Below are positions 15,318 to 58,955 of a stretch of DNA of 64,000 nt, piece by piece; positions within the stretch are counted from its first letter, which is position 1; the number at the start of each line of letters is the position of its first letter. The stretch spans positions 83,634 to 147,633 of the forward strand of contig JAJZBN010000001.1 in NCBI GenBank assembly GCA_021798875.1, read 5' to 3'. Both the position numbers and the translations under genes were made by a program. The notes beneath the pieces are model-generated. The model saw only the letters and a list, made by a program, of their open reading frames with translations. It did no database searches and was not told the DNA's origin. This DNA comes from a bacterium. GTDB taxonomy: Bacteria; SZUA-79; Acidulodesulfobacterales; Acidulodesulfobacteraceae.

Positions 15318-15376
15318 TAATGGTATAATTTATAATGTATCGATAGTTTATATGTTTTAATCGGTATGCAATAAAA

Positions 15377-15474
15377 TCAGGGGTGCCGTATTATTGTAAC
15401 TATGGCTGAGAGCGTAGCCGTTAAAGCACGCAACCCTTTGAACCTGATACGGATAATGCCGTCGTAGGGAAGAT
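15377..15474 (+). promoter_or_regulatory. TPP riboswitch (THI element)
   Basis: The conserved blocks are all present in order: CAGGGGTGC (15378-15386), GGCTGAGAG (15404-15412), ACCCTTTGAACCTGAT (15433-15448), GGATAATGCC (15451-15460) and GTAGGGAA (15464-15471). These make the thiamine pyrophosphate-binding three-way junction. A U-rich stretch with a short CTGC/GCAG stem (about 15482-15504) follows and may be the expression platform. The element controls the downstream radical SAM-thiS-thiG genes. Confidence 0.95.
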
Positions 15475-15575
15475 AGACTTTCTGCTTGCTATTTTTTTCT
15501 GCAGTTTTTCTTTCCAAAAGCTTTATCTTCAGCGTAATGTATTAGTTTTAAGTAATAAATCAAAGATATATTAAA

Positions 15576-57225: not shown

Positions 57226-57525
57226 TTAAGCTTTTTTAATCGTCTTTTTTCTCTTGGAAGCGGCGGATTCATCGTAATTAGAACTTGTTTTCTTCGCCGT
57301 TTTAGTCGCTATCTGCCGTCTTTTCGGTTTAGCGATTATTTCTTCATCTTCGTTTTGCGAATTTTGCGGCGTAACGTCTATTTCGTCTTTTCCGGCAAGA
57401 CTGTTTTTAAAATTTCTTAAAGCCTTACCGAAACCGCTTCCTATTTGAGGAAGTTTGCCTGCCCCGAATATTAAAAAAACGACTACTAAAATAATTAAAA
57501 GCTCTGGGATGCCTAAGCCAAACAT
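57226..57525 (-). CDS. tatA: Twin-arginine translocase subunit TatA/TatE
   Basis: 99 aa. [26 protein letters not shown] gives the membrane helix and the amphipathic start ([18 protein letters not shown]). The C-terminal half is Lys/Arg-rich and long. The ATG at 57525 follows GGAGGTGA perfectly; an open extension of 17 codons upstream runs into the tRNA-like fragment and is not used. TatA forms the pore for folded proteins. No tatC nearby. Confidence 0.95.
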
Positions 57526-57575
57526 GTTATTCACCTCCGTATTTTCTTTGAAAGGTTTAATTAAAACGCTCCACA

Positions 57576-57607
57576 CTATCGAGGGTTCGAACCCCTCTCT
57601 ATGTGCC
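57576..57607 (+). pseudogene. tRNA-Ser 3'-end fragment (inverted relative to the gene)
   Basis: CTATCGAGGGTTCGAA (57576-57591) is identical to the T-arm of the tRNA-Ser at 57657-57746 but on the other strand, and the following 16 nt (CCCTCTCTATGTGCC with one extra C) match the acceptor end with a few changes. Only about the last 32 nt are copied. Likely a remnant of an insertion at the tRNA. Confidence 0.75.
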
Positions 57608-57656: not shown

Positions 57657-57746
57657 TGGCGGAGAGAGAGGGATTCGAACCCTCGATAGACTTGCATCTA
57701 TACATGATTTCCAGTCATGCTCCTTCGGCCTCTCGGACATCTCTCC
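57657..57746 (-). tRNA. tRNA-Ser (GGA)
   Basis: 90 nt with a long variable arm. Acceptor GGAGAGA/TCTCTCC, anticodon arm CATGA-CTGGAAA-TCATG (anticodon GGA), T arm GAGGG-TTCGAAT-CCCTC, discriminator G, encoded CCA. Decodes UCC/UCU. Confidence 0.96.
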
Positions 57747-57874: not shown

Positions 57875-57969
57875 GGAAGCGATTGGAGGGCTGGTGCTCC
57901 CCTTTGACTTCAAATCAACAGTTGCTCCCTAAAGGGCAAGGCGGGTTCGATTCCCGTACGCTTCCGCCA
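57875..57969 (+). tRNA. selC: tRNA-Sec (selenocysteine, anticodon TCA)
   Basis: 95 nt. Extended acceptor stem (GGAAGCG...CGCTTCC), anticodon arm TTTGA-CTTCAAA-TCAA with anticodon TCA that reads UGA, a long variable arm (GTTGCTCCC-TAAA-GGGCAA), T arm GCGGG-TTCGATT-CCCGT, discriminator G and encoded CCA. Length equals that of E. coli selC. Implies that selA/selB and at least one selenoprotein exist elsewhere. Confidence 0.94.
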
Positions 57970-58028: not shown

Positions 58029-58955
58029 ATGCCGTTAATATCAGCAAAAGAAATTTTGGAAGACGCAAACAGGAAAGGTTACGCGGTAGGCGCTTTTAAT
58101 GCTAACAATATGGAATTTTTACAGGCAATATTTACCGCTGCCGATTCTCAAAAATCCCCTATCATAGTTGCGGCAAGCGAAGGCGCTATGAAATATGCCG
58201 GCGCAAAAATGCTGCATTCTATGGTTAAGACGCTTTCGGATGAATATCCTTCTATACCTGTAGCCCTGCATCTTGATCACGGCTCTAACATTAAGGCGGT
58301 AATGACGGCCGTTAAAGCAGGATTTACTTCCGTTATGATAGACGCTTCACATTTTCCCTACGAAGAAAATCTTAAATTGACAAAGCAGATAGTAGGCATA
58401 TGCCATCCGGTCGGAATTTCGGTAGAAGCCGAACTTGGAAGGCTTCAAGGCGTAGAAGACAACGTTTCCGTAGCAGAAAGAGATGCCGTACTTGTGAATC
58501 CGGATGAAGCGCGCGATTTCGTAGAAGCATCGGGCATAGATTTTCTTGCGCCAGCTATAGGTACTTCACACGGAGCATTTAAGTTTAAAGGAGAAGCAAA
58601 ACTCGATTTCGAAAGGCTGAAAAAAGTCAAAGAATTAACAGGCATTCCCTTAGTACTTCACGGCGCTTCGTCCGTTCCGGAAACCGCATCGAAAAAATTC
58701 GAAGAATTCGGCGGAGATTTAAAAGGCGCAAAAGGCGTTCCGTTCGACGTTCTTAAAGAAGCCGTAAAATTCGGCATTAATAAAGTTAATACCGATACCG
58801 ACCTCCGCATTGCATTTCTTGCAAAAGTGAGGGAGAGCATGGTTAACGATAAATCCCAAATAGACCCCAGAAAGATTTTCGGTCCTGCAAGAGATTACGT
58901 AGTCGAAGTAATCACCGAAAGAATGAAAGTCCTCGGCTCCTCCGGCAGAGCTTAA
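58029..58955 (+). CDS. fba: Class II fructose-1,6-bisphosphate aldolase
   Basis: 308 aa. Zinc-dependent aldolase of glycolysis and gluconeogenesis. AVGAFNANNMEF, LHLDHGS (zinc ligands), SVMIDASHFPYEEN, VEAELGRLQGVED, HGASSVPE and KVNTDTDLR are diagnostic. AGGGAGG lies upstream. A palindrome of the REP type follows its stop and could terminate transcription. Confidence 0.97.
   Translation: MPLISAKEILEDANRKGYAVGAFNANNMEFLQAIFTAADSQKSPIIVAASEGAMKYAGAKMLHSMVKTLSDEYPSIPVALHLDHGSNIKAVMTAVKAGFTSVMIDASHFPYEENLKLTKQIVGICHPVGISVEAELGRLQGVEDNVSVAERDAVLVNPDEARDFVEASGIDFLAPAIGTSHGAFKFKGEAKLDFERLKKVKELTGIPLVLHGASSVPETASKKFEEFGGDLKGAKGVPFDVLKEAVKFGINKVNTDTDLRIAFLAKVRESMVNDKSQIDPRKIFGPARDYVVEVITERMKVLGSSGRA

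Follow-up and report, generated by a model that had tools for sequence, protein, structure and literature searches.

Does the bacterium represented by a 64,000-nucleotide window of contig JAJZBN010000001.1 (assembly GCA_021798875.1) decode UGA as selenocysteine (Sec)? The question is raised by a single tRNA gene in the window, a term used here for that whole stretch of DNA:

57875..57969, forward strand: tRNA-Sec gene (selC), identified with ARAGORN, Rfam model RF01852 and a table of its acceptor and T stem pairs.

With a probability of roughly 0.96, this gene is the selC of a working bacterial selenocysteine system, and the bacterium very probably reads some of its UGA codons as selenocysteine. 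UGA recoding in this organism had been proposed in an earlier note on this DNA, and the proposal is upheld by the presence of selA, selB, and selD in the assembly and by two genes in which an in-frame UGA is conserved among relatives and followed by a conserved hairpin.

ARAGORN reports a tRNA-SeC (tca) at exactly 57875-57969(+) of the window, with a UCA anticodon, a long variable arm, and a discriminator G (G73) followed by an encoded CCA. Model RF01852 matches positions 57875-57965 over its full 91 model positions with 68.4 bits (gathering score 47, E 7.6e-12). In the whole assembly, which comprises 2.5 Mb in 126 contigs and is 97.3% complete, this is the sole RF01852 match above the cut-off among 16, the other 15 reaching at most 42.3 bits. 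A match by chance is not a reasonable explanation. The two programs agree on the tRNA-Sec with TCA anticodon that had been noted at this position. The assembly also holds the protein genes of the pathway:

C109:21193-22593: selA, 556.3 bits (curated cut-off 267.9).
C81:40386-42323: selB, 282.5 bits for the main segment and 301.8 bits with a second segment (curated cut-off 242.25).
C109:16060-16989: selD, 363.8 bits (curated cut-off 125).

All three genes are found above their curated cut-offs, including selA and selB, on whose presence the earlier note had made its claim depend. The selB product has an EF-Tu-type GTPase domain, a domain 2, and a C-terminal SelB winged-helix (SelB-wing_3, 53.3 bits versus 23.2). 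The Sec genes are scattered over three contigs: selC lies beside the aldolase gene fba on one, about 4 kb separates selA from selD on another, and selB is on the third. From established knowledge of the pathway, seryl-tRNA synthetase (SerRS) would load serine onto tRNA-Sec, SelA would exchange the serine for selenocysteine using selenophosphate supplied by SelD, and SelB would deliver the Sec-tRNA to UGA codons that directly precede a selenocysteine insertion sequence (SECIS) hairpin. No match to mnmH (tRNA 2-selenouridine synthase, TIGR03167) was found in the assembly at E <= 0.001. The gene immediately after selD (L018:16-1284(-)) encodes the middle and C-terminal (ASKHA) domains of RACo. 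RACo usually has an N-terminal iron-sulfur domain, for which the distance of only about 108 nt from selD leaves little room.

Two genes with an in-frame UGA were found. SelD itself has a single TGA at codon 17, in the motif HG-U-GCK. The other gene (C107:18606-19259) encodes a protein disulfide oxidoreductase of 217 amino acids with TGA at codon 143, in the context TPT-U-PHC. The oxidoreductase scores 270.8 bits against TIGR02187 'PDO_seleno_TRX' (cut-off 185) and has structural relatives such as 1a8l (E 6.9e-49). The N-terminal domain keeps CLYC, the predicted Sec being part of UPHC in the C-terminal thioredoxin domain, and the protein would presumably have a redox role. Both genes are contained in the results of a codon-usage scan, which looked for frames that run across a TGA and resemble coding sequence before and after it, and which covered 1,006,908 bases (40% of the assembly). 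A first round on 415 kb gave 23 candidates and missed SelD because its N-terminal piece was too short for the threshold; with laxer limits on 1.0 Mb, 28 candidates were obtained, of which SelD and the oxidoreductase were the only two judged convincing. The remaining candidates were adjacent or overlapping genes, antisense frames, or frames with weak scores, as judged by eye from the printed contexts. One of them, C58:7271-7462 (+), shows a U..C context and was dropped, as two genes on the opposite strand start or end within it. Within the window, the earlier note had seen no convincing readthrough, and we came to the same result: none was apparent by eye in the list of open reading frames, the scan gave one weak antisense frame, and the stricter list contained none. 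Across the whole assembly, no in-frame stop was found in the matches to PF00384 (molybdopterin oxidoreductase, one match), PF07992 (Pyr_redox_2, 23 matches), PF00374 (NiFe-hydrogenase large subunit, one match), or PF00578 (AhpC/TSA, seven matches). The UGA genes found, SelD and the oxidoreductase, are not among the targets suggested in the earlier note; of those targets, the PF00384 and AhpC/TSA matches were covered here and are without an in-frame stop.

The two genes were then compared across 31 genomes, 19 of the same family and 12 others. The oxidoreductase was found in 17 of these, including 16 of the 19 family genomes, and in all 16 family genes TGA occupies the same codon in an otherwise open frame. 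Completeness is 86%, 59%, and 86% in the three family genomes that lack it. In a scan of named genomes, the oxidoreductase was found at 15 loci, including one in the isolate SZUA-79 at 81% identity. The sole match outside the family (L132, 43% identity) has the Cys codon TGT at this site. SelD was found in 24 of the 31 genomes, and in all 19 family genes the TGA lies within the GUGCK motif, as confirmed by script, with the frame otherwise open. Outside the family, four of the five SelD matches contain one TGA, the script confirmation of its position applying to the 19 family genes only. The fifth, a SelD-like match in genome G030 (L155, G030:C74:493-1452), is free of stops and part of a longer, 748-codon frame that may encode a fusion protein. 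Across these genomes, the conservation pattern of the UGA is what selection for Sec would predict and is unlike that of random stop codons.

Conservation also extends to the nucleotides downstream of the UGA. In the alignment of 16 oxidoreductase sequences the longest run of identical nucleotides is 16 nt, beginning at +9 as counted from the U of UGA (the next longest is 8), and in the alignment of 19 SelD sequences it is 13 nt, beginning at +13 (the next longest is 6); overall, 45 and 43% of the positions are invariant, respectively. Where all sequences share an amino acid that has more than one codon, they also share the codon in 15/97 columns for the oxidoreductase and 11/167 for SelD over the whole gene, compared with 4/6 and 3/6 between codons +4 and +10. 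A single window of 8 codons far from the UGA in the oxidoreductase, starting at -115, is nearly as conserved, with a value of 0.6 versus 0.71. The invariant runs span the whole predicted stem CCGCC-GGC-GGCGG and most of the predicted GGUCC-GGA-GGACC, with predicted hairpin loops of 3 nt at 17-19 and 20-22, again counted from the U of UGA. The short stem is present in the lowest-energy fold of 14 of the 16 oxidoreductase sequences (exceptions L121 and L128) and of all 19 SelD sequences, and is absent from that of the Cys homologue L132. These features point to a nucleotide-conserved, SECIS-like hairpin predicted just 3' of the UGA in both genes.

The acceptor stem of the window tRNA departs from the textbook form in one position. 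The earlier note had described an extended acceptor stem, which stands with respect to its length, with eight positions on each strand before the 5-bp T stem; the eighth pair is A.A, so that seven of the eight pairs are standard. The pair table gives an 8+5 acceptor/T register in which every pair except the eighth, 12 of 13 in all, is standard or G.U, and a T stem of 5 bp without a bulge. In Escherichia coli, the pairs C7-G66, G49.U65, and C50-G64 serve recognition by SelB and rejection by EF-Tu, according to PMC9976931; the window tRNA keeps the second and third of these pairs (G49.U65 and C50-G64) and not C7-G66. The pair table was extended to every tRNA-Sec gene found in the family, 26 in all, which come from 25 of 30 family genomes, two of them from G026. 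Each of the 26 has seven standard acceptor pairs and a purine-A mismatch at position 8, divided evenly into 13 A.A and 13 G.A, followed by G49.U65. Outside the family there were 15 tRNA rows, of which L187 and L188 (52.7 and 52.4 bits) were dropped, having no Sec-type acceptor/T arrangement and looking like other long-arm tRNAs. Among the 13 rows counted, nine have eight standard or G.U pairs and two (L063 and L183) have G.A; L062 and L185 have other acceptor-stem defects and are neither clean 8-bp nor purine-A forms. As tRNA-Sec forms with 12 pairs, in which the acceptor stem has 7 residues, have already been described (Secmarker, PMC5330540), we regard the family form as a local variation on a theme already known. 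In a narrow search limited to passages of PMC5330540, PMC7609411, and PMC9976931, no description of a purine-A eighth pair was found. The junction may be altered in a conserved way in this family, and we tentatively suggest, as a rather doubtful possibility, that a non-Watson-Crick junction replaces the E. coli pair triplet in avoiding EF-Tu and being recognized by SelB. A conserved mismatch at a position of SelB and EF-Tu recognition is, on a small scale, a natural experiment in how a tRNA-Sec is recognized.

Several points weigh against a working Sec system with the window gene as its selC. The eighth acceptor pair of the window tRNA is A.A. The hairpins are predicted from lowest-energy folds without a shuffle comparison, and their stems barely vary, which leaves no room for covariation as a test. 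The codon-usage scan is blind to Sec fewer than 20 codons from the C terminus or fewer than 5 from the N terminus, and 60% of the genome lies outside it. That UGA is decoded as Sec in the cell, and that the proteins are made and contain selenium, is inferred from sequence. Finally, five of the 30 family genomes (G002, G006, G014, G015, and G024) gave no tRNA-Sec match at E <= 1e-9; the first four carry a UGA-containing selD, G002 and G014 also a UGA-containing oxidoreductase, and G024 was outside the UGA-gene searches. In the family search, only 57 candidates from a first look were scored in each genome, under stricter filters; this restriction, or assembly gaps, may account for the five genomes without a match.

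The alternative that survives best is a decaying Sec system, in which the genes were inherited and have little or no remaining use. The five family genomes lacking a match would fit such decay, as would the presence of only two selenoprotein genes in 40% of the genome, one being SelD, and of none in the four whole-genome family searches. Decay would also predict UGA-to-Cys changes or broken frames, whereas the UGA and the open frame are kept in 19/19 SelD genes and 16/16 oxidoreductases of the family and the longest invariant run of each gene is at the hairpin, and we consider this explanation improbable. Less probable still is a tRNA-Sec look-alike, either a selC*-type tRNA-Cys or an allo-tRNA, inserting a different amino acid at UGA. 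According to PMC7609411, tRNAs of this kind occur in anaerobes, delta-proteobacterial ones among them, some have a UCA anticodon, and the hallmark of the selC* tRNA-Cys is an 8/4 fold whose T stem has a bulged A. This hallmark is absent from the window tRNA with its unbulged 5-bp T stem; moreover, the tRNA-Sec model is matched in full length, selA, selB, and selD are present, and the UGA sites are classic for Sec (GUGCK of SelD and a thioredoxin-like UxxC), which makes a look-alike very improbable. That assembly errors or pseudogene stops account for the in-frame UGAs, leaving the tRNA without targets, might be imagined for a genome in 126 contigs, and is already contradicted by the same UGA codon in 15 further oxidoreductases and 18 further SelD genes of the family, leaving it a negligible chance.

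The window gene, read as selC of a working Sec system, lies next to the following genes:

58029..58955, forward strand: class II fructose-bisphosphate aldolase (fba), NCBIfam TIGR01859, 393 bits (cut-off 343).
57657..57746, reverse strand: tRNA-Ser(GGA), from ARAGORN and the Rfam tRNA model (55.9 bits), a divergent neighbor and not Sec machinery as such.
57226..57576, reverse strand: tatA/E-like translocase subunit, NCBIfam TIGR01411, 64.6 bits (cut-off 53.9).

The fba gene starts 60 bases downstream of selC, was found by tblastn at 15 of the 22 family tRNA-Sec loci examined, and is a neighbor without a known role in Sec use. In the tatA/E-like frame, homology begins at about residue 20. The trailer of the tRNA-Ser(GGA) contains, at 57576-57600 of the window, an inverted copy (24/25 nt) of the T arm of this tRNA and its flanks, and the two fold into a hairpin of 25 bp (z -5.8). 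As judged by eye, the inverted copy is present at all eight same-genus loci where ARAGORN found tRNA-Ser(GGA); the T loop is TTCGAAT in three of these and TTCGACT in five, and the inverted copy varies to match. Of two tRNA-Ser loci from another genus, one has a shorter inverted copy and the other lacks it. The copy may have arisen by gene conversion, or the trailer may be regulatory. In the close relative G011 (L059:1834-2238), the trailer consists of 2.7 repeats, 99% identical, of a 150-bp unit; in it the T arm occurs three times in inverted form, and the final 18 nt of the tRNA recur in direct orientation at two further places. We take this repeat to resemble the tyrT/rtT repeats of E. coli; its score against Rfam RtT is 21.1 bits, far under the cut-off of 45. 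Elsewhere in the window, a thiamine pyrophosphate (TPP) riboswitch (15369-15488(+), 69.6 bits) precedes, at a distance of 87 bases, a radical SAM gene whose C-terminal domain is of the CofH/MqnC type and which is not an obvious thiamine gene.

The G+C content of the window (34%) and the size of the assembly resemble those of published Acidulodesulfobacterales genomes, given as 30-37% G+C and 1.9-2.5 Mb in PMC6776010. The NCBI taxonomy includes a phylum Candidatus Acidulodesulfobacteriota, with which SZUA-79 is grouped. PMC6776010 does not treat selenium, its one text match being an author's name in the references, and our literature search found no paper on selenocysteine in SZUA-79. Probable selenocysteine use is recorded here for an uncultured, little-studied lineage. 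Automatic annotation will cut short or overlook selD and one thiol oxidoreductase there, at the least.

Compared with known systems, this is an ordinary bacterial Sec system, a known trait, whose tRNA shows a small structural variation; the SZUA-79-like lineage that carries it has been little studied. It resembles the E. coli-type trait in having selA, selB, selC, and selD and a UGA followed by a predicted hairpin within the coding sequence, and differs in the dispersal of the Sec genes over three contigs. The tRNA resembles the bacterial 8/5 form of RF01852 in its full-length match, UCA anticodon, long variable arm, G73, and the G49.U65 pair found in E. coli, and differs in its purine-A eighth pair, which is C7-G66 in E. 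coli (PMC9976931). Like the 12-bp variants of Secmarker (PMC5330540), it has only 12 standard pairs when acceptor and T stems are taken together; unlike those variants, it keeps eight positions on both strands, with the extra bases facing each other. The oxidoreductase, above the cut-off of TIGR02187, shows no notable difference from this family, whose name already recognizes selenoprotein members, and SelD, with its in-frame UGA in the N-terminal motif, shows none from the Sec form of SelD.
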